Source of the DNA: Candidatus Omnitrophota bacterium
GTDB lineage: Bacteria > Omnitrophota > Gorgyraeia > 2-02-FULL-51-18
NCBI GenBank assembly: GCA_023247915.1
Contig: JAHFFN010000015.1
Coordinates: 1-34,013, forward strand
Reading direction: 5' to 3'
DNA: 34,013 nucleotides
This document shows positions 5,589-26,730 of the stretch, piece by piece. A model generated the notes under the pieces. That model saw only the letters and a program-made list of their open reading frames with translations. It was not told where the DNA came from and ran no database searches. Numbering within the stretch: the first letter of the stretch is position 1; every line of letters begins with the position of its first letter. The position numbers and the translations under genes were made by a program.

Positions 5589-8500
5589 TTACGCGGCGGT
5601 ACCGATGGCTTCGATGACCATTTGAACGGCTTCGAGGATATGTTTGAATCGGATCGGTTGCAGAGGTTCAAAAAGAATTTTGAAATAGAGCGTCTCTTTA
5701 GTTTTGTCCGCCCGAAGCATTGCACTGATAACCTCGGCTCTATCGGTAATTTGAATGTATTTGCTACCGATGGCCATGCGTAAAAGTTGTTGAAAAAAAT
5801 CATTGGCGGCGAGTCTCGCGCCAGCACCCTCCTCCATATTGGGCGCCGCAAGATCCGCCAGCATGAATGCGGCTGCGTAAGGCCCGGCCTCGATAAGCTC
5901 TCCGTTGGCTTTCACCTCAGGCATCGGGAAAAATCCGGCACGACCATCAATATTTTTAAGAATCTGGGTACGTCCGGGATGCGCCAACACAATCACACGG
6001 AAATCTCCCGTTGGAGCAACGCCATCGACAAGATTTAATGCCTCTCCATTAAAAACTCTTTCCTTGGTATACACCAGGCTAACATTGCATTTAAAAATTG
6101 GCTGAAGCGCTTTGAAAATTTGAGCAGTGATTTGTTTTTCCTGAGCCGAAATCGTCGCATCTTCCGACAGAGGCACGGCAATCACAAGATTCGAACGTGT
6201 GTCGACCCGAACCTTTTCATGCCAGCGCCGAGCCTGCATGACACTGGTGAAATATTCCAGAGCTGGTGTAGCTTCGATTTGGCGAGTCTTCACAGAAAGC
6301 GCCGCATGAGACAAATGCGCTTCCTCCATCAAAGCCGGCTCGATTTTCAGGATCGCGAACGGTTCGACGCCAAATTTATCAAGCTCATTGGGGCCATAAA
6401 ATCTCACAACGCCTTCTTTTTCGCCTGTTTTCGTTCTTGAAATATCCCCGCCGATCACTGCGATTTTTTCAGAACCCTTGATCGTCAAATTGATCGGAAT
6501 ATTCCGAAGTCCATTCGCCAAAAGCGCTTTCGCTAAAAGTAGTTTGGATTCTCTGGCAATTCCTGATACATCCTCCGCCGCGAAAGCAGTCGTCGTCAGC
6601 CGCGCTCCAAATCTCTCCAAAAATCTTGGCGATTCCGCTTTCTGTGAAATCGAAGGAATCCGTATCGAAGCCTTGATTCCGATCCCTGGTTTTCCGCCGA
6701 TATTTTCGATAAAAATACTTCCGCCGACGTAAGTCTCAGATCGAAGATCAGGAGTTTTTTTAGCGAGCCTTGCGCCTGAATTTACCGTCGCAATAAAATC
6801 TCTAAAAGAGGGGTCTTGCGGGTTGGCGGCGGAGAAGAAATAGGGGCTCAATAAATCCACGGATATTCTTGAAGTTTCCGTAGCCTCTGAAATGTTTTCA
6901 GAAATTAGAATAATAAAAGAAGGGTTAGGATTGTCTTGCTCCAGAACGGAGAAACTTTTTATCAGGCTTGTGGCAAGACTAGTTTGATCATCGATAATGA
7001 TGACATCAAAAAACTTTCCTGTTCTATTGGCAGCTTCATAAGCATCAAAGCCATCTTGGGCAGCCTGAGATCCTTGAGGTGTATAAAATTCAATACCGCT
7101 TCTCCCGAGAAATTCAAATTGATCTTTGAACATTTTTTGTCTGACGGGATTATCGGCGATAATCAAAACCCTATTAATTTCTCTGCTCTTCACTGCGCTA
7201 GACGCGATGTTTCTCTTCAACTGCTGAACTTGATCCCGTAGCGATAGCAATATATTTCCCGCTAAGCGAGCGCCGACTTTCCTAGAAAGACCCTGCTCAA
7301 GAAAATTTAAGGTAGCCATCGGTACTTTATTTTTAGCCTCAAGAGATACCCATCGAAGAGTGTGCCGGCTCTTGAGATCCAAAAGCTCAAGCGCCACAGC
7401 GCGAGGTGTCTCGCTCTCGGAACGACCCATGACGCGAATAGTTTGGGGCTCAAACTCTGGAACGCCTTTCAACATAAAAGTGAAAGCAACGCTAAACTGA
7501 CCGGGCTTAATCGCTTCAACTTTCACCTGAATCCATTCATTCGCATCCAACGCGATATTAAATTCCACAGGATTGTTCACCGAAAAATCCAAAAGCGCTT
7601 GAACATCTGTGTCGTCGCCTTTTGATAGCCGCGCTCCGTATGCCCCAAATCTCAGCGTCACAAGCCCCGAAGCCGCTAGAGCCGCAATCGTTTTATCGGA
7701 AGACTTCAACCCTTTCTTGCTCAAAATATTTTGCATTTGATGCCGACTTTCATCGTCCAAAGAATCAAAAGAACCGTGCAGTAACGTCAGCGTCAATGCC
7801 AAGAAAATTTTATAATTATCGGATCCTGTGGAGCGGCCTAACTCTCGTATCACGGCATTCAAAAAGTCATGGCGCTGACTCTTGCTGGCTCTATGCTCAA
7901 TCAAACCGGCGAGAGCCAGGGCGGCAAACAATCTTGTTCTTACATCATGGTACTGATAAGGCTTCTTTCGATTCAAACCCTCCATTAGCCTATGAAAAAT
8001 ATTCAGATAGGTCGGATCGTCAATTTCAATCTGGAGTTCATCCCAACTGATTTCCGCGAAGGCCGCCGCTGCTAATAGCGCTTCCGCGTTCTCATCTTTG
8101 TTCGCCGCCGGTGCCCTATCCAAAAATAAGCCGATCTCCTTAGCTTTTTGAGGCAATAATTGCTTTCGCAGAAAATCCCTGACGGTTTGAACATCTTTAT
8201 CGGATCGAATCCACTCAGGGCTATACCAACCCTTGGTTAACGCCTTGTTTAGCTCTGCGAACCCATGAAATGTCGTTCCATCAAAGTGACCGGTCGCCAA
8301 AGCGTCAGTTAAAATAACGGATATTTTCTGATTCAATTCTTTAAAAAGCGCGGAAGTAGTGAACACCCGTAAAGTCTTGGCGTTAAAATTAACGACTGAC
8401 AATAAACCTAATTTTGAGCTGATCTTTTTTCTGGGAGACAGTTCACTGTGATCAATTTCGTCAAATTTTTTCAAAACTGAAGCAATAAATGTGCTTGGCG

Positions 8501-11500
8501 CTTCTTGGCTATAGAAAAGAACGAGACCCGCACGCTCCGCGTGATAATAATCCCCATCATGCACGGTATGAGCGTGTTGGCGGCTCCACTCTCTAAAATC
8601 GCTCGTTTCTCCAAAACCGGGTGCGCCCATCCCGGTGTCAAAAGAGACGATGACATGCAATTGATTCAATAAATATCCAAGATCATGCCTCTCGTCAGAC
8701 GATAACGGCGCTTGATCATAAAATGCTCTAAGATCGTCAGTATCCAAGCTTAGTTTTTGAACAGCCGGCTGGATAAATTCACGTCGGATCATGGAGTCAT
8801 GTATTCTGAGCCCATGACTCAACGCGATTCCCATTTCTTTTAAATCCGCCCAGGCCAAGCGCGCACCTTTCTGGGGATTTAAAATCTTAAACATGTCATC
8901 AAATCGTTCAACAAGCCGCGCTTGCGATGCCAAAAAGAGAAAATCATGATCGAGAGTTTCGGGATTGATCTGCGTCTGGAATCGTCTGATAAATACGTCG
9001 GTGTCACTTTCATGCTCCGCCATGCAAAGTACGACAAGGCGATGAGACTGACTCTTGGCTCTCAGGATTCCCTTCGCTCTTTTAACACCGGCATCCGAAA
9101 TGCTGGACGCATCGACAATCAGAAGATCGACGGCGGATTTTTCCGAAGAAATCGTTTGCTTTTTAAGCGTAGGATTAACGAGTACCCACCGATGGCGATA
9201 AGGAGCGCGCCTCGACTGGTCAAACGTATATATTTTTGCCACCTTCGACTGCAAAGCTTCTACGGTTTGCTTCAACATCTCTTTTTTGATTTTGTGGGGC
9301 TCGAAAATGAAGATACGGCGGATCGAGGACTTCGGATGATGTTGTCCAATGCGCTTAAGCTGGGCTTGCCAAACCTCCGCTGCTTGCGTGTGACTTTGCT
9401 CCCTAAGCGCCTCCAAAGAATGCCTCATGGTGAGACGAGCGCCACGAGGAATTTTCCCGTCGGCTAAAGAACCTTGAAATCCGGAAATATTGAGCTGAAC
9501 GGCTTCCAGCAATAATTTCCGCTCGTCTTGAGAAATAGTATTAAACCGGCCTTCTTTTATTTTCTTTTCGAGAGTCGCCTTGCGTTTTTGAGCGGAACTG
9601 ATCAGTTTAACCGCAGCTTCCCCATCGGGATTTCTGCCACGCATACGGTTTCGGGCACTTTGAAGATCAGCGTAAATGGCGTCCAGCTCCAGATAAAAAT
9701 CAAAATGATTCTGCAGGTCTTTCCATTCAAATCCCTCTCGGAATATTTTGTGAACAAACCATGCCTTTAAAATCAGACGGTCTTGAATGCTTTCGCCGGG
9801 TCTCCAGATTTGTTTATAGACTTGGGCGATTGTTTTGTAATCATCGGCCTTCGGAAGGGTGAGTTTGTTCTGAAAGAGTCCCTGATAAATATTCAAAATC
9901 GTAAGCCTGGCTATCATATCCGGACTCTCTAACATTTTCTTTAGATCCGTGACAAGAGAAGCGTCTTTATAGGATTTATTTTTTCCTTGTTGGCCTCTTT
10001 CTTGTTCGATCCTGTCGGCCAGGCTGCGTATTTCTTTTTGCATCTGCAAAGAAAGCCCTTTCAACAAAACTATTTCTTGCGCGGAACCGCGATAAGCCGT
10101 CAGCGCCCGATTGAGGATGGTTTTGGCCTGTTCCGGCTCGATTTGCACGTCCGAGATCATGGCAGGCCCTCCTCCCAACTGCTGGCGATGATGAATGCTG
10201 GTTTCAAAAAAAGCGATGGAGGTCCACAGCGCGACAACATCTTCTTTTTCGGAAGGTGCGAAAAGATTGGTTCCATAGAGATCAAATAAGATGCGATAAC
10301 GGTCGATAGCCGTATAAGCGCGATTGGTGATTTGCTGAAAAGAAGAGGTAGATTTGCTTGGAATATTAGTCAAATTGGAAATCGTAATCTGTGAAACCGG
10401 AGCCGGAGGCGCATTGGTCTGAGCCACCGTCGTCACCGCTTGTTTTACCGGAGAATTGGAGTCAAAAAGCCAGAAAGCCGCTATAGCATACCCCAAAAAT
10501 GCGGCCACATTAATCGCTGCAAACCACTTAAACCATCCAGGCATTCCCTTAAACCAATTCCAAGCCTGTTGTATGCTTCCAAGCCTGGAACCCTGCGTAA
10601 ACGCCTCCAAAAGATACGCTTTTGGCTTTTCTCCGCCCTGATAAATTACCACTTGATTGGTAGCGGGTCGATAAACCACTCCCCAGGTAAGTAGCTTTGG
10701 TTGATAGAATGGGATGATCCGATTTGTCGTGATGCCTTTTCTTTTTAAATAGCTCTCGGAACCAGAGATGATATCCTCATTCTCCGCCGCCGTGCTTTTG
10801 ATATAAACGGCCTCTTTTTCTCCTTCTCCCAGAGCTTCCAAAATAAAATCGATATGATAAGTTCCCAACGCATGTTTGATACCCTCCCAGACATGCAAAA
10901 ATGCCTGCCGCTGATTAGTTTTATTGCGAATGAGGATGATGTGACAATGAGTCAAATTGTCGCTTCCGGCGGAAACCAAGGCATCCATTATCTCCTGATG
11001 ACCCTGAGAAACATTCATGGCAAGTTTTGGATTTTGTGTCTCTGGAATGTCGGGGCGTCCATTTTTGAAGAAAATTTCTCCTGTCTTTTGCCGCTCAAGA
11101 TTCATGGCGCTCATCACCGCCTGAGGAATATTCTCCAGCGACATCCCAACGCCGACAAGATGGTCTCTGTACCGCTCTTTCACTCGGGCGATTTCGTCAT
11201 CAAAATTTTGTTTTTCAAATTCTTCGAAAATAAACTTTTCGAGGATTTGGTGGGCTTCCTGTCTGATGGCCTCGTTTGCCTTGAGATTCAACGCCAAAGT
11301 CTGCAGAGCCCGGAAAGCATGACGTTTTGGCCATTTTCCACCTACTTCAAGCACATGACCCACCGCCGATACAAGGCTCATCGGCACAAATTCCGTCTCA
11401 TCAATAAACAAGGGGAATAAATTATCGTTAATGAGATCACTCTTCAGCGATTCCTCAACTGAATCCGGCAATTTCAGCAAAGCCTTTTCGTAAATACCCA

Positions 11501-20500: not shown

Positions 20501-23500
20501 AGTCACGCTGATGCTGCTCCTCATGATAGCCACCGTCCTTTAAGATTTCTCCCTCGACGTCTTTAGGCATTAAAGAAATGAGTCTTCGGAATAAATAATC
20601 TGATCCCTCCAGCACGTCGTCTTGAAAAAGCGATTGGACACGCTTTCCTTCGCGTTCGCTCTCATAGCTTAAAGCTTTACCAAAAGTTATCTTGTCTTTC
20701 ATCGTCTCTGCCCTAAGATTTTCTAAAGATTTTTTCTCTTCTTGAATGGCAGCCGAAGCAATCATGGGTGTGCCGTTGAGTGTGAACCCAAGCCCACGAT
20801 GTTCTTCAAAACTCCGATCCTTTCCGATAGAAACAACAACGGGAACGCCGGTGTTTTTTTCTACATCGACGACTATAAAGGCAAGAGCCGGTATAAAATA
20901 ATACGGCATTTTTTTACTGCGACCCTCATAGAAGACGACCATTCCATTAAAACCAAAGTAATCGCGGAGTCGGACATAAAATTGATCAATTGCCGCATCA
21001 TCGGCCAAGCGCATGTCTAAACCCGCTTTAAACTCATCGGGAAACAAATTGATTATTTTTCTATAAGTTTGTAGACACTGTTCTCTCAGTTGCGGCTCTG
21101 TTAAATTTGGGTCTTGGAGTTTTTTACGAAGCGGCACCAACTCTCCAAGAATTTTGTTGGAATTGTCCAATCCGCCTTCCGTAGACGGACGATAACCCTT
21201 TAAAAGCGGTTTTTGTGACAAGCTTTTCATAAACTGCTGAAATTTTTTGTCAGCGACTGACTCGTCCGGAACTTTTTCCGGTATCGCCGCAAAACAGGAA
21301 GCGAATGCACCGCCGGCCAACAACTTCGCTGCGTTTGCCAAAAACCTGCGCCTGCTAGTTAATTTAAATTTCGCTAGCCGCGCTCCTTTGAATTTTTTAA
21401 CCCAATTTGGGTCATAATGATGGCTATCGAAATAGTTGGATAGATACTGGTAAGTTTCAACGAATAAATTTCTATTCGGGAATGGAAGAGGCGCAATAAG
21501 CTTCTCAATAGCTGCTTGAGCCAACCGGAGAGATCCTGTTTTTTCAAACATGACCATGTGCTGCGCAAAGGCTATGATCCCCATTTCTGTGTTCAAGTGC
21601 TGCTTCCAATTTTCGGAGGACACGAAAAACCTGGGATATCTTTCTCGCGCGAATGCTGTTTTAAAACTTCCATTGGGCTGGACTTGATTCCGGTAAACTT
21701 CGGCCAAAAGATCGGACTCTGCTCTCCCGAGCCAATACATAGGATCCTGATCTTCGTGCGTCGGCTTGGTTTTATCTAGTCCGAACTTTTCTACAAGCTG
21801 TTCGCGCTGAAGTTTTAATGCGGCCTTCTCGGTAACTCCGACGGCTGTCTCATTCCAAACAATTCCTCCATTACTCTCAACCACATGCCCATAAGAATGA
21901 ATCAGAATTTGCGCGCTTGCCTCAGAAGACAAATTAAAATCTCGATCTCGAATACTAGCCAATAAACTCGCTAAATTAATTCGGGCATCTCGAAATAGAT
22001 TGGTAAAATCGGCAGGATAAACCTCGGCCGTAAAATCGGTTTCATGCAAATACTCGGGAAGTTGTACTCCTCTATTCGTTCGGATTAATTCTCTCTCCCC
22101 AGCTGGGATTCTTCTTAACGCTCTATTGACCTTTGCCGCCAACCGACGCAAATAAACAAGATTCTTCGGATCATTTCCCAAAGCAGTCACAACCGCGGGA
22201 AGGTCTTTTCTCAAATCTCCCGTCTCCGTCGTTTCCTCCGTCGAATTGATAATTGGAAATGAATAAGAACTCAGCCTGTGCTCCCACTTCGAACTCGCCG
22301 TCGCCAGCCGCGCGCCGTAGGGAGTTGCTTTTGCATAATAACGTCGAATTTTTTTGAGTACATTGGCAACCAGATCTCTCTCGATTCCCCAACCTTTAGC
22401 TGATGCGCTTACCCTGATCTGCGCGGTAATCCATGGCTGATGTTTGGAAATGAACTCTGAAATACTCTCTTTATTCAGTCCCTCTTCAACGCCGACAAGC
22501 GCCGCGACCAGCAATCTTTCTGCCTCCTCCAAAGAGCTGCCCATCTGGTTCGCCCGCGCCAAACGCTCCGCCAACGCGTCAAACCTACCCTTCTCTTTCC
22601 CTTCAAGAAATGATCTTACGATGGCTTTGGCTTCGTCGTTCAAAATCGGAGTGATGCTTAGACCCTTGAGCTCTTCCAGAACTCGTTCAATTTCGGCAGC
22701 ATCCTTTAATTCTTGAAGACGAGCCACCACTCGTGGGTTCTGAAAGCGCGCCATAACTTCTCTTAGCTCTGTTGTGGAGTGCTGATAAGCATGCTTTTCC
22801 ATGGACGTGAATGTGCCGGGCGGTAAGTTAAGCGCTTGCTCAGCGATTTTTTGTGTTATCCCCAGCGAACGACGAGTGCTTTCAATAAAAAATCCAAGCC
22901 GCTTCTTCTCTCTTCCCGTAAGCCGCCCTTTTACCTTGGGCATGCGCGGCATCTTAATCTTTAAATTGGGGTTAAGTTCATTCAGTACACGCCGAAGATA
23001 AGATATAGAAAATTCTTGAGGTTGCCCCTCTATCATTGCGACCACCGTTCGTGATTTTCCTATAACTTTACCAGCTTCTGCTTGCGTCAATTTCATCTTC
23101 TCGCGCATTTTTAGAAACTGCTCAGCAAGTGATTTTTTTATGGCTAGGATGCGCTTCTCTTCCCAAGTAATCGCAGTCTTTGGAAGTCTCTTGCGGCGAC
23201 CACCACTTTCAATAGTGCCTTGAAGCTTTGTGCCTACAATCCAACTTCCCGTCCATTCATAATAACGACGCCCCATCGAGCCGCGCCCTTCTTCTAGAAG
23301 TTTTACATAGCCTTTGCTTTTGGCGAGTTGTAAAGCTTTTACGATGTACGCGTAGCGAGTTGTGTGACTAAATTTCTTGGATGCAAAAGTAAGATTGACG
23401 TCTTCAGCAAGATCTTTTGTAGAAAAATGTTGGGCTATTTTTGGATTTCCGGCCAAGTAATCCAATATCTCGGATGCTACGGCCGCATCGGTTGGACTAA

Positions 23501-26500
23501 AATAAGCGCGTTCCAAAGGAACAGTGCTCGGAGTAAGAGCCAAATCTGCCAGCCGCGCGCCAACCGATGGCTGCGCCATCGGAGATTGTGGCGTTGCTGT
23601 TTTTCCACCATCCCTCATCCACTCTCCACCATTTGTCTTTCCTGCCAGCCGCGCACCGGATCCCAGATCCCTATCAAGAAGCACAAGCTCAATTAAACGG
23701 CGTTTTATATCTAACAACTCCTCTGACTTGGATTGAAGGTGGAGACTACGCGAATCAATGAAGTTATTGATAATATCTCTTACCACATTAATATCTCTTG
23801 CGGTATGGGCTTCCAAACGAACGTTTGAAAATTCACCAATAATGGACTCTCCAAGCATACCCTCCAAGTCGCGACTAACATTCTTATAGTCAAGTTCGAC
23901 GATCAACACCAATGCCGATCGCCTGAATTGTTCCAATGAGATTCCAAAAATCCAGCCGTTATAACGCGTTTGAGAATTTTGTATAATTTCAACGAGGTTC
24001 ACAGATCCAAATAATTTTTTCAAATAACCCGCTTCTGTACCCCCAGGAGGTATCATCTCTAACGCTCCGGTTACAAAATCTGCTTTATCTCGCACAACCA
24101 TGGGACCCATTACTTTTAGGGGCTCCGAAGCATCCACTCTTGAAATCAATAAATCTAGAAACTTCCCAGCCCCCTCTGTATTTTCTTTCTCTGCAAAGAT
24201 CGAAAACACCATGACGAGATTATCGGTGACCAACTTAGAATCTCCCGGCTCAGTGATTGCTTGATAAAACTGGTCAAATTCTTCCGCAGACGGACACTGT
24301 TCTCCATTTTTAGTTAATTGGTTTATGTCTTTCCTCAGCTTATATTGAGCTGCGACTTTAGCTGCTACGGTATCATTTCCACGCCGGCTCGATTTCTTTT
24401 TGAGGTAAATTTGGTATGCCTCTTCTTTTCTTTTTTTAAGAGCAATATTAAAATCAATATAGAGTTGTCCTTTTTGAATACTTTCAACTATTTGAGATGC
24501 CAATACTCTCAAGGGGATAAAATCGGGATGTTCCGACGCAACTATGATTTTTAAAAAATCAACGAATCTGTCGGCTCGAACCTGAAACTCTTCCTTGCTA
24601 TCTCCAACAAGTTTTTCGTAGCCTAAAGCGGTTGTCTCCCACAAATCCCGCATACTGTTCAAAACTCCCACTTTATCACTCGCTTGGATGAGCAGACTCA
24701 AAGCTTTGCTTTCTTGGCGTTCAAAAACCGCCTCCAAAATTTGTTGCGCCGCCACCAGCCGCGCCCCCCGAGGCGCCAAAGGCGCCGAGGAGAGACCCGC
24801 TGACTTTTTGGCGGACGCCGAACGATTCGCTCCAATCGCAGATTCGAGCATCATCGCCGCAGCCTTGTCTTCCGTGTGCGCTATTCGGGCAGCGGCGCCC
24901 ACCAATTGAGCCAGCCTAGCTCCATCAAGTGCCTCTGCGATTCTTTCAGTTCTTACATCGTCATTGGCCTTTTTTAACTGGATAAAGTCTTTTTCTAGGG
25001 CGCTCTCGGAGGAGGTTGAAACAATTTTGATTTCTTTTTTGACAGGCTCAAGAAGCAATCTTTCGTACTTGGCCTGATTGGTTTCGGAGGTCACCGTCGG
25101 AGCGAGCACAGCATAAGAATAGCCTTTTTCTTTGAAAAGCTTCGTGAGATGCGAGGTGTGATAGCCGCCGGCGATAAGGATGGCAACTTGGGCATTTTCT
25201 TCTTTCAGGATGCGTTCGGAGTTTTTCATGAAAGAGAGATCTCTTTCAGCGACGGAGGCATAGAAATTTTCTAGCGCCGCTTTCCCCTCTTCCAAATAGT
25301 TTTCATACGGCAAGAGATCCGTGAAGTAACCGAGTTCGGCGAGTTTGCGATTGATAAATGCTAGAGTCGCCGCGGTCAGGAAGTCGGGCTCGTTGACTTT
25401 AAAGAGCTCGAATTCTTTGGTTGTCATTTGAATGTGATAAGCTGTTTGGAGAAGCTGGATATAGCGATCAATTGCGTGAATTAACGCTATGTCATTGCGA
25501 GGAGCCGAAGGCGACGAAGCAATCTGAGATTGCTTCGCTTCGCTCGCAATGACAGCCTTATACACCTCGTCCTCCAACCGTTCGGATTCTTCTATGAGTT
25601 CTTCGAGATCGATTTTGGAAAATTCTTCCAGGTAATCGCCGTAAGCCGCGTAGTTGGGGTATTGAGTCAATTGGATATTCTTAGTTTTCGCGATATTCAA
25701 AGTATTTCGAAAGTAGGAAAATTGAGCGAGTTTGTTTTGATTTAATTTGGACGCCCTGGACAAATAATCCCGAAGCTCGCTGCCTCCGCCCTTTTTATCA
25801 ATCTCTTGGATCAAGGCGGCCTGCTCGAGATTGGCGAGATTAAAGTCGATGGATTTTTCTTGCTCTAAGAGTATGGAGAGTTTTTGTAAGGTTGGAAAAT
25901 TGTTGAGTTGTTGAGACGTTGAGGTGTTGAGTTGGGCGAGCTCAAGAAGTTTTTTTATTTTACTATCGCCTAACTCCTGCCTTCTATCTCCTAAAGCTTC
26001 GTATTCGATCAACTCCTTCGGATAAAGTTTCCGTTTTAATTTCTCAAGTCCGCTGTCGATTCGCTTTAGATATTCCAAAATCGCTTCGCGGCGTTCGGCA
26101 AGATCACCGTAAGCGCGCACGCTTTTCAGATACAGCTCTCGATCTTCGATGCCCATGATTTTCATCGGATGATCGGAAATCAAATTAAGATATTCTTCGC
26201 CGGAAATTTTTCCTTCCATCAAAAAGCTCTTGGCAACGCGTTTCCAAACCTCCGGCGGCGCGACTTCTTTGATCGGAGTCAGCGTATCGTCCTTCGAACC
26301 GCCTTCCACAAGCACCAACGAAACTTTGTACCTGGACATGATTTGATCAAGAGAATTAGCGAGATTTTGCTGACCGCTTAGATTCGCGTGGGCGTCTTGG
26401 ATATGAATAATAAAAGTTTTGTCATCCCCTTTGTGAATCTCTTTGAGCGAAGAAAATTCCACCGGCGCTTCAAAGCGTGAGGGGTCTTTCAGGAGAAGAG

Positions 26501-26657
26501 TTTGGCTTTCGCTAGCCGATAGGGACTGTCCCCGCCAGGGGACTGTCCCTGAAACGCCGCCGTCCGACGGATAGGCATAGGCCAAATCCGTGGCTAAAAA
26601 AGTAGCCACAAGAATGGCGGCGATAGACTTTAGTATAGGTCTTTTTTTTCTGGGCAT
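5589..26657 (-). CDS. Giant 7,022-residue GARLA-punctuated polyprotein-like ORF
   Basis: One unbroken reading frame of 21,069 bp; such a length without stops can only be kept by selection. The start ATG at 26657 lacks a strong Shine-Dalgarno, but a promoter lies about 45-75 bp upstream and the first 28 residues form a textbook signal peptide (basic MPRKKRP, hydrophobic core, cleavage near AYA-YP). Twenty-five copies of a GARLA-like pentapeptide divide it into 26 modules that resemble unrelated complete proteins, listed below as separate entries. Several begin with their own Tat-like signal or membrane anchor right after the motif. It is unlike ordinary giant adhesins, which repeat one domain many times. 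Possible readings are a proteolytically processed polyprotein, an operon fused into one frame, or a giant envelope protein with linker motifs. I do not recognise a characterised homologue. Confidence 0.9.
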   Translation of the reverse strand: MPRKKRPILKSIAAILVATFLATDLAYAYPSDGGVSGTVPWRGQSLSASESQTLLLKDPSRFEAPVEFSSLKEIHKGDDKTFIIHIQDAHANLSGQQNLANSLDQIMSRYKVSLVLVEGGSKDDTLTPIKEVAPPEVWKRVAKSFLMEGKISGEEYLNLISDHPMKIMGIEDRELYLKSVRAYGDLAERREAILEYLKRIDSGLEKLKRKLYPKELIEYEALGDRRQELGDSKIKKLLELAQLNTSTSQQLNNFPTLQKLSILLEQEKSIDFNLANLEQAALIQEIDKKGGGSELRDYLSRASKLNQNKLAQFSYFRNTLNIAKTKNIQLTQYPNYAAYGDYLEEFSKIDLEELIEESERLEDEVYKAVIASEAKQSQIASSPSAPRNDIALIHAIDRYIQLLQTAYHIQMTTKEFELFKVNEPDFLTAATLAFINRKLAELGYFTDLLPYENYLEEGKAALENFYASVAERDLSFMKNSERILKEENAQVAILIAGGYHTSHLTKLFKEKGYSYAVLAPTVTSETNQAKYERLLLEPVKKEIKIVSTSSESALEKDFIQLKKANDDVRTERIAEALDGARLAQLVGAAARIAHTEDKAAAMMLESAIGANRSASAKKSAGLSSAPLAPRGARLVAAQQILEAVFERQESKALSLLIQASDKVGVLNSMRDLWETTALGYEKLVGDSKEEFQVRADRFVDFLKIIVASEHPDFIPLRVLASQIVESIQKGQLYIDFNIALKKRKEEAYQIYLKKKSSRRGNDTVAAKVAAQYKLRKDINQLTKNGEQCPSAEEFDQFYQAITEPGDSKLVTDNLVMVFSIFAEKENTEGAGKFLDLLISRVDASEPLKVMGPMVVRDKADFVTGALEMIPPGGTEAGYLKKLFGSVNLVEIIQNSQTRYNGWIFGISLEQFRRSALVLIVELDYKNVSRDLEGMLGESIIGEFSNVRLEAHTARDINVVRDIINNFIDSRSLHLQSKSEELLDIKRRLIELVLLDRDLGSGARLAGKTNGGEWMRDGGKTATPQSPMAQPSVGARLADLALTPSTVPLERAYFSPTDAAVASEILDYLAGNPKIAQHFSTKDLAEDVNLTFASKKFSHTTRYAYIVKALQLAKSKGYVKLLEEGRGSMGRRYYEWTGSWIVGTKLQGTIESGGRRKRLPKTAITWEEKRILAIKKSLAEQFLKMREKMKLTQAEAGKVIGKSRTVVAMIEGQPQEFSISYLRRVLNELNPNLKIKMPRMPKVKGRLTGREKKRLGFFIESTRRSLGITQKIAEQALNLPPGTFTSMEKHAYQHSTTELREVMARFQNPRVVARLQELKDAAEIERVLEELKGLSITPILNDEAKAIVRSFLEGKEKGRFDALAERLARANQMGSSLEEAERLLVAALVGVEEGLNKESISEFISKHQPWITAQIRVSASAKGWGIERDLVANVLKKIRRYYAKATPYGARLATASSKWEHRLSSYSFPIINSTEETTETGDLRKDLPAVVTALGNDPKNLVYLRRLAAKVNRALRRIPAGERELIRTNRGVQLPEYLHETDFTAEVYPADFTNLFRDARINLASLLASIRDRDFNLSSEASAQILIHSYGHVVESNGGIVWNETAVGVTEKAALKLQREQLVEKFGLDKTKPTHEDQDPMYWLGRAESDLLAEVYRNQVQPNGSFKTAFARERYPRFFVSSENWKQHLNTEMGIIAFAQHMVMFEKTGSLRLAQAAIEKLIAPLPFPNRNLFVETYQYLSNYFDSHHYDPNWVKKFKGARLAKFKLTSRRRFLANAAKLLAGGAFASCFAAIPEKVPDESVADKKFQQFMKSLSQKPLLKGYRPSTEGGLDNSNKILGELVPLRKKLQDPNLTEPQLREQCLQTYRKIINLFPDEFKAGLDMRLADDAAIDQFYVRLRDYFGFNGMVVFYEGRSKKMPYYFIPALAFIVVDVEKNTGVPVVVSIGKDRSFEEHRGLGFTLNGTPMIASAAIQEEKKSLENLRAETMKDKITFGKALSYESEREGKRVQSLFQDDVLEGSDYLFRRLISLMPKDVEGEILKDGGYHEEQHQRDYGLNLDKKTLELRARIKSLRHAPWHRMLSLAIHHKYSGNTGDVLVNQIEQEIKEAIVKIILDDPKSYQALIELSIPDIPSSVSQQSIVTAQLYKFVLPENKNKLEALTQKLAEHYGFTDLFPKPSGARLAENPNRRLFLKNVLGAAFLAASAGDLATQEQPTAKTQEKPWQDFKDTQSFEGIKECLLQTLEWMKKSNYPFPAVLDAYAEALKNATPIMGDLERAPILTKMLLTKDRPLISINVKTLSGILTAVKGGGDKSAELFLENVVSMLGREAWGLAYLKESSEEGDELSILRKNIAKSLEEFNYDADKTLAKHDQDIEKLAAFTIAGEAFEVYRQLEVADWARAVFSIPAPKIRADDPNKTWLQELESRRSSLESILEYELSLWLPPSLSNYFVAGGFNPQSARTPISQFAYDSFVVSEMQKGKKGFEAAVIRSYFEKNGRVPKELFRNSAKRLAPLVERIVKKYEKRIKEAYPSKPTGKAGARLAEYKNPPWLPNREVLEKLAASRHIAVVVDPKPEDIFTRKWIQFDQDLDVTVPVGSQAFSNKDVQRWSMLNNLSVTQIFKEMQLPETTTGLVVLYTSDLVSSKKPVSFERILLEEILHVISDDERPVQHDVHINLAMEAVTNFFILMFYPEDKVSEFYSPHVDWSDDEKRALIARYFVQKGNSPDFQAILSRLAADIPKNVSIPVGEGHQNIQSILLGGFADDEGYQNHLKACVAYLVKTHAFAGLTISTERNFGARLAAQPFTSDPTLLSLKLKAYQEWIDAFLSDYAERYPELEFHALAEAFKELVQRPIHEDDWEARYVDAVGKHFSEARPSIDNDTLKYALRTLVNKSKNEDFSPEDIEALVEYIKSAHPVEKKQNESKSGKKQIEISLVKQDDEETEELMSEFGNEFEVYLAVGLSKETRADFERMFSPSADDEAVQYGILSANGKIVSLLRIGYRNGIIPTLHNMPLKKLTFELWSLTRQRTANPSDFLDLPLVGNQWIHRVEKINDGDSLSRIRMTYEVPKGTRLAQRPWLSNLFDLEKLRRWVNAHPRKWRPLIRLIAKNIHHVSQEKFEEALQEAVDDFKSKFSGSYLMMNLEMSQPDSVEWVRSLVLEKGLPAPVNPDLSQSMIEALRANPEVLDVVIADDASYTGDALGSYILRIQEHFPERKLRFHVLVPFMTRASVSTVKKKVSERTPSKIYFYKHRQIETLEEILKKASPKYIQMAKELYAGHHSDLNFDDYNFEHDKVRTLTYFDHKVPDTLSFFKHILDGWVLGLNGRFQVSKGRFSLIPKTVEPYHPDYQEWAKRQIRHGRRRTSGVPVAAGARLSALKNFSVVLSIALALVTGNYFIERHLFKAFPEITVAVDEKDEADRASIERYYQEFFKSYPETKYKIWINHPQEELKQPSTFLSPTIHYVSNKNIIALGLSAFVFVPLLCLYLLSNLSKKSKGDKGYFFNETISVFSVITFFAVALNTADMVRFRAVFDYFWYFSALSPGDFIFLSSIGFLFGRLVYGALNSTPHRGARLAKDSKNKKPEIGRRRLLQTGLILGGGLLLVGGTAITRLLNAKRQTQNQAPVQARPRKLTDEEWFGELVKTTREIHQGYKAIAENKKYFESTNSFIGRDLVSGRDVYMLNENHFETYSLELAVSFLRDRLPDFRKNPKKWLFIDENLLLREATMKRDGKGLGNPHDLLIRTSEHFNIPRIGPIKTVAQWEVIQEAIQRGKGYALNPYSPEEVIAMAVTLFALAQYRPDIADEVVGIKTDRLLSDWKKEASGYAFNREKIIEIAKELLARKTAPSPDRERPVFTVRDRELESLIRRVADEKTEEAVTKVIKDNPGVEKIFVILGRNHSLSVLNGIEKASLRPGKGARLADANTYKDSLRKSLVVAGIIGIASCAVMTLSFLGPSILVSYLPTVLKFWLIISAAIFASRFQGHVWKQIGIMALPIVWIGLLGGHPVGLKQVLFTIGGVLATFAGTLLSKGYISKASSQSPKEIFYSSLRWSLIVTTISRFMLYTAFMPFILGTSVSGAFLRTIFDQGIASTFAHVPSTMMLGMIFGEKINVWKDITKGNFGDLWRSNTVKAILRLYPINFLFWYVALTINYSLAGNNEILFFTNQTFIHFVWVGFLERHIRRNFEASGARLSTRRDGSEVIDGAGDLSRLRLVEPTTVLKGFYSPRTGSSVIFRKGMKIKPGSEVLILGGGTGADAILAASLGAKKVYVTDLNTANIELNVSQSKFRDRIVVLKGDLFNIAELKGKKFDHIFMNSWIEDKLVYRLLSEANTYLKEGGTLGLTYAAHPLFLSQIYEFGWKPQSVFGFNKARKAQEAPKLVMAMEPAAPMDVLDVAGEALSNFTGLEQKDYDYGFFTLIRRAPEDFERARRYQQDYFDLHLSIGTNGDASFVYGDVQDRVMNEYPSLTYLDPTDNSKSLGDRLLFLTARNTKAAAESSSRLEVSDEMFEPPAAGARLASSTKEGIRKRVWVPTLAALLMLIPLVQSRKGASKSSEENGVAQTQTQKKKVSEVSWSEPGNIFQKTSSRRQRPFSVNREPVDLVALNKAQIEYTVEELNKSSYRGWTASQEYGDLNGAIAESMEGMRLRGELARLYAIETYSFYSRAQDVKGFYDSRTGVYSATFDNQTYYFADDGQATHILTPLTPEQVQIIYEDWRTQQIIENQDGSLTVPGLKRIQKELIPINPPDAAARLAAKKKGLSLDEASVLLRGLHQVANLSGEELEKDLGWSELLAAELTRHPIDKMVVVGDGLRTLPLFLALMGKEVLFVDKNDEKTYAIEEAVLLLNRKVNFKLRVKTVTSEIGVLNLSEHGLSPHSYDAMTFAGLMGGAPEGDPGKWLKKASELLKSKAYLVIDETNLGKNSLIDNFPGSFTDPQLLAAGRFFHDGYNKLDRIPNRLYAVNNPAATGARLADSQVAVGTYFARIQAGDEKVFEELTEVFSEEEIHIAIQVLEKCIFELDEVAQGRMIHLAFKALKGIRRDNKKTSIQGKAAGEIVMGIYEKALLKLPDSVEESLKSDLINDNLFPLFIDETEFVPMSLVSAVGHVLEVGGKWPKRHAFRALQTLALNLKANEAIRQEAHQILEKFIFEEFEKQNFDDEIARVKERYRDHLVGVGMSLENIPQAVMSAMNLERQKTGEIFFKNGRPDIPETQNPKLAMNVSQGHQEIMDALVSAGSDNLTHCHIILIRNKTNQRQAFLHVWEGIKHALGTYHIDFILEALGEGEKEAVYIKSTAAENEDIISGSESYLKRKGITTNRIIPFYQPKLLTWGVVYRPATNQVVIYQGGEKPKAYLLEAFTQGSRLGSIQQAWNWFKGMPGWFKWFAAINVAAFLGYAIAAFWLFDSNSPVKQAVTTVAQTNAPPAPVSQITISNLTNIPSKSTSSFQQITNRAYTAIDRYRILFDLYGTNLFAPSEKEDVVALWTSIAFFETSIHHRQQLGGGPAMISDVQIEPEQAKTILNRALTAYRGSAQEIVLLKGLSLQMQKEIRSLADRIEQERGQQGKNKSYKDASLVTDLKKMLESPDMIARLTILNIYQGLFQNKLTLPKADDYKTIAQVYKQIWRPGESIQDRLILKAWFVHKIFREGFEWKDLQNHFDFYLELDAIYADLQSARNRMRGRNPDGEAAVKLISSAQKRKATLEKKIKEGRFNTISQDERKLLLEAVQLNISGFQGSLADGKIPRGARLTMRHSLEALREQSHTQAAEVWQAQLKRIGQHHPKSSIRRIFIFEPHKIKKEMLKQTVEALQSKVAKIYTFDQSRRAPYRHRWVLVNPTLKKQTISSEKSAVDLLIVDASSISDAGVKRAKGILRAKSQSHRLVVLCMAEHESDTDVFIRRFQTQINPETLDHDFLFLASQARLVERFDDMFKILNPQKGARLAWADLKEMGIALSHGLRIHDSMIRREFIQPAVQKLSLDTDDLRAFYDQAPLSSDERHDLGYLLNQLHVIVSFDTGMGAPGFGETSDFREWSRQHAHTVHDGDYYHAERAGLVLFYSQEAPSTFIASVLKKFDEIDHSELSPRKKISSKLGLLSVVNFNAKTLRVFTTSALFKELNQKISVILTDALATGHFDGTTFHGFAELNKALTKGWYSPEWIRSDKDVQTVRDFLRKQLLPQKAKEIGLFLDRAPAANKDENAEALLAAAAFAEISWDELQIEIDDPTYLNIFHRLMEGLNRKKPYQYHDVRTRLFAALALAGLIEHRASKSQRHDFLNAVIRELGRSTGSDNYKIFLALTLTLLHGSFDSLDDESRHQMQNILSKKGLKSSDKTIAALAASGLVTLRFGAYGARLSKGDDTDVQALLDFSVNNPVEFNIALDANEWIQVKVEAIKPGQFSVAFTFMLKGVPEFEPQTIRVMGRSESETPRAVALELLDLKSRHTLRWVSLEAKNKVPMATLNFLEQGLSRKVGARLAGNILLSLRDQVQQLKRNIASSAVKSREINRVLIIADNPVRQKMFKDQFEFLGRSGIEFYTPQGSQAAQDGFDAYEAANRTGKFFDVIIIDDQTSLATSLIKSFSVLEQDNPNPSFIILISENISEATETSRISVDLLSPYFFSAANPQDPSFRDFIATVNSGARLAKKTPDLRSETYVGGSIFIENIGGKPGIGIKASIRIPSISQKAESPRFLERFGARLTTTAFAAEDVSGIARESKLLLAKALLANGLRNIPINLTIKGSEKIAVIGGDISRTKTGEKEGVVRFYGPNELDKFGVEPFAILKIEPALMEEAHLSHAALSVKTRQIEATPALEYFTSVMQARRWHEKVRVDTRSNLVIAVPLSEDATISAQEKQITAQIFKALQPIFKCNVSLVYTKERVFNGEALNLVDGVAPTGDFRVIVLAHPGRTQILKNIDGRAGFFPMPEVKANGELIEAGPYAAAFMLADLAAPNMEEGAGARLAANDFFQQLLRMAIGSKYIQITDRAEVISAMLRADKTKETLYFKILFEPLQPIRFKHILEAVQMVIEAIGTAA
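5592..5807 (-). other. Module 25 (residues 6951-7022): C-terminal module, unknown
   Basis: 72 residues after the last motif copy, ending VIEAIGTAA and a TAA stop. Helical ends around two short strands. It does not look like an LPxTG, GlyGly-CTERM or type IX sorting tail, so no C-terminal surface-sorting signal is visible. Confidence 0.3.
5823..6593 (-). other. Module 24 (residues 6689-6945): unknown soluble module
   Basis: 257 residues with alternating alpha/beta character (NIPINLTIKGSEKIAVIGGD, NLVIAVPLSEDATIS, FRVIVLAHPGRTQI). No leader and no recognised motif. It ends NMEEGAGARLAA. Confidence 0.28.
6609..6761 (-). other. Module 23 (residues 6633-6683): fragment resembling the end of a histidine-kinase ATPase domain
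   Basis: 51 residues. GGSIFIENIGGKPGIGIKAS followed by IRIP resembles the last strands of HATPase_c domains (GGxI-x-V/I-E-N-x-x-GxGxxF-x-I-x-LP). The N, G1 and ATP-lid parts are absent, so it cannot bind ATP alone. Either a remnant of a lost kinase or a coincidental beta hairpin. Confidence 0.35.
6777..7259 (-). other. Module 22 (residues 6467-6627): receiver-like domain
   Basis: NRVLIIADNPVRQKMFKDQF (6495-6514) and FDVIIIDDQTS (6550-6560), then SFIILISENIS, match the strand order of CheY-type receivers, with Asp6556 or Asp6557 near the phosphoacceptor position. The usual conserved Lys after strand 5 is not evident. It sits next to a histidine-kinase-like tail (module 23), the order reversed from most hybrid kinases. 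Confidence 0.4.
7275..7622 (-). other. Module 21 (residues 6346-6461): small beta-rich module, unknown
   Basis: 116 residues with alternating hydrophobic strands (NEWIQVKVEAIKPGQFSVAF, TIRVMGRSES, HTLRWVSLEA), which suggests a compact beta domain. No motif recognised. Confidence 0.3.
7638..8852 (-). other. Module 20 (residues 5936-6340): unknown helical module
   Basis: 405 residues without leader or membrane segment. A His/Asp-containing stretch (REWSRQHAHTVHDGDYYHAERAG broken over 5936+105 onward) might bind metal. The C-terminal 130 residues are short helices (LFAALALAGLIEH, IFLALTLTLLHG) suggesting a HEAT-like fold. No family assigned. Confidence 0.28.
8868..9428 (-). other. Module 19 (residues 5744-5930): degenerate receiver-like domain
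   Basis: Strand RRIFIFEPHKIKKEMLKQTV, then AVDLLIVDASS, then HRLVVLCMAEHE follow the order of a CheY-type receiver (strand 1 with acidic residue, strand 3 with Asp, strand 4). The acidic pair after strand 1 is replaced by Glu-Pro, so phosphorylation is doubtful. It is the only module with a Met directly after the motif (GARLT-M), but no ribosome-binding site stands before it. Compare module 22. Confidence 0.35.
9444..10577 (-). other. Module 18 (residues 5361-5738): single-pass membrane module, unknown
   Basis: An aromatic-rich membrane helix (FKWFAAINVAAFLGYAIAAF) starts about 16 residues after the motif, followed by a Pro/Thr/Ser linker and a 300-residue helical domain. It has the topology of an anchored extracytoplasmic protein. 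A basic KSAQKR-like segment and charged coiled-coil stretch (KRKATLEKKIKEGR) lie near the end. No family recognised. Confidence 0.4.
10593..11753 (-). other. Module 17 (residues 4969-5355): unknown, helical repeat plus alpha/beta tail
   Basis: The first about 240 residues are a run of amphipathic helices typical of HEAT/ARM-like solenoids. The last 130 form an alpha/beta region with HCHIILIRNKTNQRQAF and KLLTWGVVYRPATNQVVIYQ. No leader and no catalytic motif recognised. It ends at the divergent motif GSRLG. Confidence 0.3.
11769..12407 (-). other. Module 16 (residues 4751-4963): second methyltransferase-like Rossmann module
   Basis: IDKMVVVGDGLRTLPLFLALMGKEVLFVDKND has the strand, glycine loop (4801-4810), helix, strand and acidic residue (Asp4826) of a class I methyltransferase, though the loop GDGLRT is degenerate. 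Later YDAMTFAGLMGG takes the motif IV place. Probably SAM-binding or a decayed relative; less certain than module 14. Confidence 0.4.
12423..13112 (-). other. Module 15 (residues 4516-4745): single-pass anchored module, unknown
   Basis: Begins with a basic stretch and one membrane helix (KRVWVPTLAALLMLIPLV), then a Gln/Thr/Lys/Ser linker (AQTQTQKKKVSE) and a polar domain rich in Tyr and Asp. It has the topology of a type II anchored periplasmic protein. No recognised family. Confidence 0.4.
13128..14084 (-). other. Module 14 (residues 4192-4510): SAM-dependent methyltransferase-like
   Basis: Class I methyltransferase motif I is clear: SEVLILGGGTGADAILAASL (glycine loop 4244-4254), followed by KKVYVTDLN with the acidic ribose-binding Asp4270. 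KFDHIFMNSW is in the motif IV position and GGTLGLTYAAHP in the motif V/VI region. It would bind S-adenosylmethionine in the cytosol. The methyl acceptor is unknown. The C-terminal 130 residues have no visible motif. Confidence 0.6.
14100..14900 (-). other. Module 13 (residues 3920-4186): polytopic membrane module
   Basis: About seven hydrophobic segments, beginning SLVVAGIIGIASCAVMTLSF 11 residues after the motif and ending with IHFVWVGFLERHIRR. Few charged residues. It looks like a complete transporter-like or Mpv17-like small membrane protein, but no signature is firm enough to name a family. Confidence 0.45.
14916..15938 (-). other. Module 12 (residues 3574-3914): membrane-anchored Tiki/ChaN-like module
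   Basis: GRRRLLQTGLILGGGLLLVGG is a signal-anchor or Tat-like leader (three Arg at 3585-3587). The body has VYMLNENHFETYSLELAVSF (His3684), KWLFIDENLLL and KIFVILGRNHSLSVL (His3897). This order of Glu/His strands resembles Tiki/TraB/ChaN domains and echoes module 0, so the giant protein may carry two such domains. Remote similarity only. Confidence 0.4.
15954..16538 (-). other. Module 11 (residues 3374-3568): integral membrane module
   Basis: Four hydrophobic segments: FSVVLSIALALVTGNYF right after the motif, ALGLSAFVFVPLLCLYLL, a helix around VFSVITFFAVALNTA, and DFIFLSSIGFLFGRLVYG. An 80-residue polar loop lies between the first and second. Unknown family; reads like a complete small membrane protein. 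Confidence 0.45.
16554..17438 (-). other. Module 10 (residues 3074-3368): phosphoribosyltransferase-like domain
   Basis: The segment LDVVIADDASYTGDAL (core DDASYTG, residues 3190-3196) matches the PRPP-binding loop of type I phosphoribosyltransferases (hydrophobic strand, Asp-Asp, x-x-TG). A second signature, LTYFDHKVPDTLSF (FDHK at 3299-3302), resembles the conserved FDHK-x-x-D block I associate with stand-alone PRTase-like proteins. This is an intracellular-type nucleotide-handling domain. Substrate unknown. The tail is basic (RQIRHGRRRTSG). Confidence 0.5.
17454..18260 (-). other. Module 9 (residues 2800-3068): unknown, two-part module
   Basis: The N-terminal half is helical (LKLKAYQEWIDAFLSDYAER) and joined by a Lys/Glu/Ser linker (KKQNESKSGKK) to a mixed alpha/beta half (FEVYLAVGLSKETRADFERM, VQYGILSANGKIVSLLRIGY). 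No recognised motif and no leader. It ends at the variant motif GTRLA. Confidence 0.28.
18276..19031 (-). other. Module 8 (residues 2543-2794): unknown, His/Glu-rich helix
   Basis: 252 residues with no leader. A segment SFERILLEEILHVISDDERP, followed by HDVHINLAMEAVTNFF, places Glu and His residues in helices as in some metal-dependent peptidases, but without a clean HExxH. Later VGEGHQNIQSILLGGFADD. No family assigned. Confidence 0.28.
19047..20111 (-). other. Module 7 (residues 2183-2537): Tat-signal-like exported module, unknown
   Basis: Begins ENPNRRLFLKNVLGAAFLAASAG immediately after the motif: Arg-Arg-x-F-L-K followed by a hydrophobic core and small residues, as in twin-arginine signals. 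The rest is helical and charged, with no known catalytic motif. It ends KPTGKAGARLA. It has the same layout as module 6 (motif, RR signal, about 350-400 residue body). Confidence 0.4.
20127..21371 (-). other. Module 6 (residues 1763-2177): Tat-signal-like module with HEEQH motif
   Basis: Directly after the motif comes TSRRRFLANAAKLLAGG, close to the twin-arginine consensus S-R-R-x-F-L-K, followed by a hydrophobic core with a possible lipobox-like GAFASC. There is no ATG, GTG or TTG between motif and signal. Residues 2045-2049 read HEEQH, an HExxH-type zinc-binding pattern, within GGYHEEQHQRDYG. This suggests an exported metallopeptidase-like or metal-binding domain. The third zinc ligand cannot be identified by eye. 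Confidence 0.45.
21387..22301 (-). other. Module 5 (residues 1453-1757): unknown soluble module
   Basis: 305 residues with no signal peptide or membrane segment. A His-containing segment ILIHSYGHVVESNGG and an acidic THEDQDPMYWLGRAESDLLAEVYR are the most motif-like parts. The HSYGH pair followed by Glu suggests a metal site, but it does not match HExxH and I assign no family. Confidence 0.3.
22317..23546 (-). other. Module 4 (residues 1038-1447): DNA-binding module with XRE-type HTH
   Basis: An N-terminal segment (about 1053-1138) resembles a winged helix. An XRE/HTH_3-type helix-turn-helix follows at about 1177-1228 (core MKLTQAEAGKVIGKSRTVVAMIEG). A second, weaker HTH-like segment is at about 1252-1304 (SLGITQKIAEQALNLPPGTF). 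The C-terminal 120 residues are helical. Basic segments GGRRKRLPK and KMPRMPKVKGR surround the HTH. A sequence-specific DNA-binding domain belongs in the cytoplasm, which clashes with the signal peptide at the protein's start unless this module is released. Confidence 0.6.
23562..23642 (-). other. Module 3 (residues 1006-1032): 27-residue linker
   Basis: The shortest interval between motif copies: Gly/Thr/Pro-rich and polar (KTNGGEWMRDGGKT, then PQSPMAQPS). Probably unstructured. Two motif copies this close could free a short peptide if the motif is a cleavage site. Confidence 0.4.
23658..24752 (-). other. Module 2 (residues 636-1000): helical module, unknown
   Basis: 365 residues, mostly charged and alpha-helical in character, with no signal peptide, membrane segment or recognised motif. 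It contains a basic stretch (KKRKEEAYQIYLKKKSSRRG). The pattern of short amphipathic helices could suit a HEAT-like solenoid, but this is weak. The underlying DNA looks more AT-rich than the flanking housekeeping genes. Confidence 0.3.
24768..24908 (-). other. Module 1 (residues 584-630): short Ala/Ser-rich linker
   Basis: 47 residues between two motif copies, rich in Ala and Ser (GAAARIAHTEDKAAAMML, then NRSASAKKSAG). Too short and low in complexity for an enzyme; probably a linker or the remnant of a lost module. It ends APRGARLV. Confidence 0.4.
25491..25553. repeat. 63-bp palindromic repeat element inserted in frame (SEAKQS type)
   Basis: Perfect 11-bp terminal inverted repeats (GTCATTGCGAG and CTCGCAATGAC) enclose an inner palindrome (GAAGCAATC / GATTGCTTC). 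The length is 21 codons and it is in frame, encoding VIASEAKQSQIASSPSAPR plus ND at residues 369-389 of the giant protein. The peptide IASEAKQS is the familiar translation of a small dispersed palindromic element found in many bacterial genomes. It interrupts module 0 without breaking the frame. Confidence 0.85.
26521..26550. repeat. Imperfect palindromic repeat next to the signal peptide
   Basis: Two copies of GGGACTGTCCC-type sequence (AGGGACTGTCCCC at 26521-26533 and GGGGACTGTCCCT at 26538-26550) around GCCA. They form both a direct repeat and, with one central mismatch, an inverted repeat. It encodes residues 36-45 (about SGTVPWRGQS), just after the signal peptide cleavage region. Probably another small dispersed repeat read in frame. 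Confidence 0.6.
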
Positions 26658-26702: not shown

Positions 26703-26730
26703 AGTATACATTAATAAATACTAATTTCAA
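26703..26730 (-). promoter_or_regulatory. Probable sigma70-type promoter of the giant gene
   Basis: On the minus strand TTGAAA, a 16-bp AT-rich spacer and TATACT preceded by TG (extended -10). It lies about 45-73 bp upstream of the giant gene's ATG in a 221-bp AT-rich gap, implying a leader of about 40 nt. Both hexamers are close to consensus. Confidence 0.6.

Follow-up and report, generated by a model that had tools for sequence, protein, structure and literature searches.

Giant open frame and its recurrent word

The window analysed here is a 34,013-nucleotide stretch of contig JAHFFN010000015.1 (assembly GCA_023247915.1) from a Candidatus Omnitrophota bacterium (class Gorgyraeia). Its minus strand carries a single open frame (26657..5589) of 7,022 amino acids (aa), which opens with ATG at 26657, closes with a stop at 5589-5591 and has no internal stop, while the remaining five frames across the same stretch hold 231-451 stops each. 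At 21,069 bp, it is longer than the 20 kb by which giant open reading frames (ORFs) of the Omnitrophota are recognized. The first-pass annotation of this DNA had described one 21-kb stop-free frame with 25 in-frame GARLA-like words, and both descriptions hold: the words comprise 22 of the form GARLx with one GTRLA, one AARLA and one GSRLG, and GARL[ASTGV] occurs 22 times against 0.08 expected from composition. It had also likened the pieces between the words to unrelated proteins, and they do have that appearance. Pfam matches in the frame, every one confined to a single piece, are a helix-turn-helix (HTH) domain, a methyltransferase and, weakly, a PRTase-CE-like stretch. The copy of the word at aa 6946 does not lie between modules. 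The frame, its words and the features between them are the following:

5589..26657 (-): giant open frame, head domain, about 24 cargo pieces and C-terminal domain, 7,022 aa
24909..24923 (-): GARLA 1, aa 579, head-domain end
24753..24767 (-): GARLV 2, aa 631
23643..23657 (-): GARLA 3, aa 1001
23547..23561 (-): GARLA 4, aa 1033
22950..23159 (-): HTH_37/HTH_3 domain within module aa 1038-1447 (Pfam E 1.1e-7)
22302..22316 (-): GARLA 5, aa 1448
21372..21386 (-): GARLA 6, aa 1758
21273..21371 (-): twin-arginine-like signal SRRRFLANAAKLLAGGAFASCFA immediately after GARLA 6
20112..20126 (-): GARLA 7, aa 2178, aligning with a motif in another species' polyprotein (G001d1)
20034..20111 (-): twin-arginine-like signal NRRLFLKNVLGAAFLAASAG immediately after GARLA 7
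19032..19046 (-): GARLA 8, aa 2538
18261..18275 (-): GARLA 9, aa 2795, aligning with GVRSA of genus g12 (L129)
17439..17453 (-): GTRLA 10, aa 3069
16860..17345 (-): weak PRTase-CE-like stretch within module aa 3074-3368 (E 0.0012, below the Pfam cut-off)
16539..16553 (-): GARLS 11, aa 3369
15939..15953 (-): GARLA 12, aa 3569
15828..15938 (-): twin-arginine-like signal GRRRLLQTGLILGGGLLLVGG after GARLA 12
14901..14915 (-): GARLA 13, aa 3915
14085..14099 (-): GARLS 14, aa 4187
13650..13928 (-): methyltransferase domain within module aa 4192-4510 (Pfam E 1.8e-7)
13113..13127 (-): GARLA 15, aa 4511
12408..12422 (-): AARLA 16, aa 4746
11754..11768 (-): GARLA 17, aa 4964, aligning with GARLA of polyprotein b of G010
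10578..10592 (-): GSRLG 18, aa 5356
9429..9443 (-): GARLT 19, aa 5739
8853..8867 (-): GARLA 20, aa 5931
7623..7637 (-): GARLS 21, aa 6341
7260..7274 (-): GARLA 22, aa 6462
6762..6776 (-): GARLA 23, aa 6628
6594..6608 (-): GARLT 24, aa 6684, final joint ahead of the C-terminal domain
5808..5822 (-): GARLA 25, aa 6946, within the C-terminal domain, the exception

The frame has company in its genome, a 1.65 Mb metagenome-assembled genome (MAG) of 81 contigs, 89.6% complete, in which the window is contig 11. A genome-wide pattern search found most GARLx sites clustered, and ten more giant frames without stops, or pieces of such frames, were recovered on contigs 63, 32, 8, 26, 35, 57, 66, 81, 46, and 53, taking only stretches with motif or head-domain matches. 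Two of them, C35 and C46 (on contigs 35 and 46), have 40 identical residues in common where they overlap, and probably represent a single frame. Together with the window these frames amount to about 154 kb, or 9% of the assembly. Over the 11 giant frames of the genome GARL[ASTGV] is found 89 times against 0.6 expected, and GARL itself 90 times, with the commonest other order of the same four letters found 12 times. The search for GARL-dense long ORFs that the annotation had proposed thus succeeded both here and in relatives, where independent genomes show the same architecture. This bears on the possibility that the frame is an assembly or binning artefact or a chance stop-free run, to which the fragmented state of the MAG lends some color. 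One of the independent genomes, G010, has frames of 9,531, 10,129, 6,789, and 12,701 aa, and because all four share one 1.59 Mb contig, assembly error is excluded; 7,022 stop-free codons at 45% GC cannot be chance. The recurrence refutes this explanation, which we regard as negligible.

Joints between modules

What the word does in these frames is visible where different predicted polyproteins share sequence. Local alignments between them, with the domain that heads each frame left out, yielded 41 unique shared stretches. Sixteen times both partners had a motif no more than 12 residues from the end of a shared stretch, past which their sequences were unrelated; circular shifts of the motif positions gave 0.3 on average (maximum of 3 in 1000 shifts). 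Conversely, motifs fell within shared stretches 12 times against 41 expected, and none of the 19 Pfam domains in the cargo is split by a motif (6.4 expected, P 1.5e-4). Modules bounded by two adjacent motifs hold a receiver domain (107 of the module's 126 aa), a GNAT domain, an LRR domain and a beta-propeller, and the same holds for a glycogen synthase complete with both domains (GT5+GT1, 605 aa). GARLA is a joint between independent protein modules. The expectation that it would lie between rather than inside folded domains is upheld by the uncut domains and the coincident ends, but fails for the copy at aa 6946, which is inside the C-terminal domain.

A joint could be no more than a scar of module shuffling, in which recombination occurs at a short DNA word and the encoded peptide has no function of its own. 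The motif does leave a trace in the DNA. The G+C content at third codon positions (GC3) of the five motif codons is raised locally, 0.69 vs. 0.43 in G000, with normal flanks, and the rise relative to the flanks recurs in most genomes; motif codons are also slightly more alike within one locus (0.714) than between loci (0.685). Such a weak trace could arise if joints are copied or serve in recombination, but it does not account for the conservation of the residues. Synonymous variation occurs at every motif codon, all four codons varying while the residues are kept and the DNA word changes, and the GC-rich G010 has a different codon bias. Genus g12 departs further: G-x-R-x-A is enriched in three of its frames (18 vs. 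3.1, 8 vs. 0.8, and 8 vs. 1.1), yet it still stands at homologous joints, GVRSA opposite GARLA and GSRAA opposite AARMA. The core that stays constant consists of G or A, R, and a small residue, in that order. Since the codons vary and the g12 word drifts at homologous joints, selection on the motif, judged from these comparisons, acts at the protein level. We consider the scar improbable. The drift from GARLA to G-x-R-x-A is what would be expected if the site and the specificity of an enzyme changed together. As a separate observation on codon usage, CGG and CTG are over-used at the motif codons of all loci, with the GC3 rise confined to the five codons.

The surroundings of the motif point to what such a constraint might serve. 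Strong conservation is limited to the five positions and the flanks are mildly P/S/A-rich, so that GARLA resembles a short site in a linker. In 85 of 90 motifs L is followed by A, S, or T, and a small residue there would give a stable new N-terminus. Signal-like hydrophobic segments starting 5-45 residues past the motif number 25 against 10.3 expected (standard deviation, sd, 3.1), whereas ahead of the motif they are not in excess. Among the post-motif signals listed, seven look twin-arginine-like, three of them in the window, and TatC is encoded. Signals of N-terminal type directly after the motif fit best with a new N-terminus being made there.

Constant ends, variable cargo, and distribution

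Giant frames whose start is present open with a signal peptide followed by a conserved head domain of ~530 residues, and at least nine close with a related C-terminal domain. At the two ends of the window frame these features, and a site just upstream, are placed as follows:

26703..26730 (-): promoter-like site just 5' of the start codon (consensus match only; number of such sites not above shuffles)
26571..26657 (-): N-terminal Sec-type signal peptide MPRKKRPILKSIAAILVATFLATDLAYAY (from sequence; other start-containing frames have the same)
24993..26570 (-): head domain, aa 30-555, TIKI/EreA/ChaN-like predicted hydrolase, common to giant frames
26388..26399 (-): QDAH, acidic D88 and H90 of the predicted 2His/2acid site (alignment; PMC6254334)
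26304..26306 (-): E118, 28 residues past H90, the same distance as in Bcr135 and VvRRSP
25242..25244 (-): R472, invariant basic residue, 28 before H500 (29 in VvRRSP)
25158..25169 (-): GGYH, H500 being the second predicted catalytic His
5592..6593 (-): C-terminal domain, aa 6689-7022, family common to several polyproteins
5592..5606 (-): C-terminal tail IGTAA

The head domain of the window gave no convincing Pfam family match, and one of its homologues matches the Pfam family 'Haem-binding uptake, Tiki superfamily, ChaN' (6.6e-4). An AlphaFold2 model (pLDDT, predicted local distance difference test, 75.8) searched with Foldseek against the PDB returned EreC at ranks 1 and 2, HopBA1 at 6 and BcR135 at 12; these are members of one superfamily, although the matches are weak, all with E of at least 0.085. 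Comparison at the level of residues gives stronger evidence. The TIKI endopeptidase VvRRSP needs E3900-x-H3902, E3930, H4030, and Arg-4001 (PMC6254334). The head domain has D88-x-H90, E118, R472, and H500, with spacings of 2, 28, and 28 against 2, 28, and 29 in VvRRSP, and it thus carries the 2His/2acid active site of TIKI/EreA/ChaN proteins with the Bcr135/VvRRSP spacing. [DE]-x-H90, E118, R472, and H500 are kept in every aligned sequence that covers the sites, with a gap of 28 or 29 from H to E; two A1 sequences end before H90. Because residues and spacings match VvRRSP, the head domain is probably an active TIKI-type hydrolase. Like the TIKI/TraB/EreA/ChaN superfamily, it keeps [DE]-x-H, the E 28 further on, the Arg 28 before the last His, and GG[FY]H; it differs in a large helical insertion, in the weakness of its structural matches and in heading giant polyproteins. 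Its omega of 0.11-0.37 indicates purifying selection. Short repeat-like inserts lie in frame in the head domain of the window at 25485-25544 (aa ~372-391) and in the heads of L009, L008, L003, and L005 (SEAKQSQIASSPSAPRND, SSVERIAxTKDKNNIAY.LNAIRSTL, IASSTSSPRND, HSERSEESIDEILRFSQDD); they resemble small interspersed DNA repeats whose insertion happened to keep the frame. In L003 and L008 (C32 and C66 of G000) the head domains are about 81% identical (omega 0.22) and the cargo is different, that is, a duplicated head with exchanged modules.

The C-terminal ~330 residues belong to a divergent family present in at least nine polyproteins. The AlphaFold2 model of this domain is poor (pLDDT 48.7), and omega for one such domain was 0.50. 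The extreme tail is more uniform: among closed frames in the lineage the final residue is Ala in 28 of 31 and the one before it Ala or Ser in 30 of 31 (x[AS]A-COOH). An S41 tail-specific protease as a reader of this tail is not supported; among the six lineage genomes tested it is present in G005 and G010 and was not found in G000, G001, G003, and G011, some of these genomes being incomplete. Frames outside the GARLA lineage (L084, L089, L108, L111, L117, and L121) end in -SL, -SV, or -xAA, and this small-hydrophobic C-terminus may be a signal of its own.

Between these ends the cargo is diverse. Pfam matches, some of them weak, include HTH, methyltransferase, PRTase-CE-like, HEAT, beta-propeller, LRR, FHA-like, GNAT, protein kinase-like, receiver, PAS, carrier protein, fucose pyrophosphorylase, phosphomannomutase, and glycogen synthase. 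The last of these could be compared with its household counterpart. An ordinary stand-alone glycogen synthase is encoded in 6/6 genomes tested, and a second, divergent match lies within a giant frame in 4/6. The glycogen synthase module has an omega of 0.18, again indicating purifying selection. Where testable, then, the cargo adds a divergent paralogue to the household copy, whose stand-alone gene remains in the genome. Complete but divergent glycogen synthases lie in the polyproteins of two genera (L163:5732-7591, minus strand, and L172). The proposal that the frame is a fused operon does not fully fit: the testable cargo is additional to a stand-alone gene and the frames share a constant head and tail, and for these reasons the modular architecture is a dedicated one and not that of an ordinary operon without stops. 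The signal peptide, taken with the predatory or host-associated habits that have been proposed for Omnitrophota (PMC10066038), suggests that the cargo may consist of proteins for export or delivery.

The head domain is far more widespread than the word. In a profile search the 80 relatives kept out of 484 were all Omnitrophota/Omnitrophica records, except one titled only 'Bacterium'. The domain occurs in 13/13 genomes of the same family, with frames of up to 12,701 aa, and in 112/236 genomes across the phylum, with giant frames to about 12,000 aa in many families; in some Omnitrophota lineages it forms a protein by itself, of about 530 aa. Giant frames of other families are enriched in neither GARLA nor G-x-R-x-A, and a search for enriched gapped words as equivalent punctuation elsewhere in the phylum found internal repeats or Pro/Ala/Val-rich linkers only. 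Since frames of other families show neither word, GARLA punctuation belongs to one family-level lineage, while giant frames with the same head are phylum-wide. In frames from other Omnitrophota families (L176-L177 of G101 and L180-L181 of G230) there are internal repeats of about 90 aa (LSxxALSLAKRFADSLRDVR) and about 87 aa (GRVNxxTV). The window frame has no whole-frame orthologue in relatives, where isolated modules are found inside other giant frames only.

The genes flanking the window frame are of ordinary household type (aconitase, deoxyhypusine synthase-like, pseudouridine synthase, OGG, DnaJ, HD, DeoC, YchF, and GH57) and follow the table 11 code with normal stops, which argues against a misread code. 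The related idea, that the modules are separate genes expressed from internal starts and lack stops by accident, has no direct support, although some joints are followed by Met (e.g., aa 5744). Met just after the motif is not enriched, no Rfam RNA element was found at gathering thresholds, promoter-like sites across the frame are no commoner than in shuffles, terminator-like sites are only slightly above them (30 vs. 24, sd 4.8), and the same design recurs in other genomes. Separate genes are, in our estimation, very improbable.

Proposed processing of the chain and its meaning

The observed basis for any interpretation comprises the frames themselves, the constant head and tail, the shuffling of modules with joints at the motif, the conservation of the motif as protein, and the purifying selection seen in the head domain and in one shared module. 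The reading that we favor, and consider reasonably probable, is that of a giant exported or delivered polyprotein which is cut at GARLA. One mRNA would be translated into one chain consisting of a signal peptide, a TIKI/EreA-type head, up to about 30 heterologous cargo proteins, and a C-terminal domain with the x[AS]A tail. The chain would be exported, and a dedicated endopeptidase probably recognizes [GA]-A-R-[LM]-[AST] at each joint, releasing the modules as separate proteins that would start near the small residue. The fixed ratio of products that the annotation had suggested would be a consequence of such processing. The R-L bond, the L-A bond and the bond after A are candidates for the scissile position; the loss of Leu in genus g12 favors recognition of G, R, and the small residue. 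The head domain, as a predicted hydrolase, is a natural candidate for the processing enzyme, and the released cargo may act on prey or host cells. The fullest version of this scheme is a tentative possibility that we hold with some doubt: about 9% of the genome would encode self-processing polyproteins, in which the TIKI-type head, or an enzyme acting with it, would cleave as many as about 30 joints in each chain and free a shuffled set of complete enzymes and effectors, probably for predation or epibiosis, with site and enzyme specificity co-evolving.

Several observations weigh against cutting at GARLA. The head domain also leads giant frames without GARLA enrichment in other Omnitrophota families and so cannot exist only to cut GARLA. 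No C14 caspase was found and no protease is tied to the motif; a search for the C80 family gave no match in 13 genomes, but as no control genome gave one either, it is uninformative. The copy at aa 6946 lies within a conserved domain. Even in the lineage some frames are sparsely punctuated, with only 9 GARL/AARL words in the 10,105 aa of C53 and 1 motif in the 6,890 aa of G002c1. RRxFL alone is only mildly enriched after the motif (11 vs. 5.3), and a Sec signal at the front of a chain that also holds internal twin-arginine signals would be hard to reconcile unless cutting were early.

The main rival to cutting is that the chain stays whole and GARLA is an uncleaved linker, docking or anchoring word, read by a chaperone, an export machine or a cross-linking enzyme. 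Omnitrophota giant ORFs have been interpreted as intact adhesion or coat proteins and peptides of a giant ORF have been detected in Ca. Velamenicoccus (PMC10066038), and related giant frames in other families persist without such a motif. However, the modules in the present frames are complete heterologous enzymes and signaling domains rather than repeated adhesin domains, and the N-terminal-type signals just past the motif are better explained by a new N-terminus. We therefore rate the whole chain as rather unlikely.

Processed polyproteins of many unrelated proteins are regarded as a viral device, and rarely a eukaryotic or toxin one. With viral polyproteins the frames share heterologous proteins in a single frame and a recurrent short joint site; they differ in lying in a cellular genome among household neighbors, at many loci, and in carrying metabolic and signaling cargo. 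Among toxins, MARTX proteins are cut between their effectors by a cysteine protease, after Leu in a small-Leu-small consensus and in unstructured segments (PMC2900308). The predicted chains resemble them in being long and secreted, with ends that stay constant while the complete effector domains between them vary, and GARL|A would fit Leu at P1 and a small residue at P1'. There are also differences. The chains described here would hold up to about 30 cargos each and occur at several loci per genome, their ends are a TIKI-like head and a C-terminal domain, and no C80 protease or RTX repeats were found in Pfam scans of the scanned frames. The joint [GA]AR[LM][AST] has Leu and a small next residue; however, an Arg stands before the Leu, which genus g12 does not keep.

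Giant ORFs as such are known from the Omnitrophota (PMC10066038; PMC11573180), including the 39,678-aa protein of Ca. Velamenicoccus reported by Seymour et al. (2023, PMC10066038). The present frames belong to the same phylum, exceed 20 kb, and are poorly conserved in content, and their head domain leads many giant ORFs phylum-wide. The main text of PMC10066038 uses neither 'polyprotein' nor 'cleav' and stresses transmembrane helices and adhesion domains, and the portions of the two papers covered here do not mention a common head hydrolase, a conserved tail or a recurrent joint word. A literature search outside which preprints and most subscription papers fall found no paper on a bacterial polyprotein of such kind. 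The architecture would be categorically new for bacteria, although the principle of multi-site processing, which is only predicted here, is known from viruses and a few toxins.

These frames present a cellular bacterial lineage with hundreds of punctuated joints, and those joints delimit modules that recur in different frames and species. Giant ORFs of the Omnitrophota, poorly understood so far, thereby gain a shared architecture of head hydrolase, cargo, and tail. The motif predicts the exact places at which processed ends would lie in existing metaproteomes, and GARLA may be a site cut by a new protease, possibly one of TIKI fold. If this is true, bacteria may use virus-style polyproteins genome-wide.
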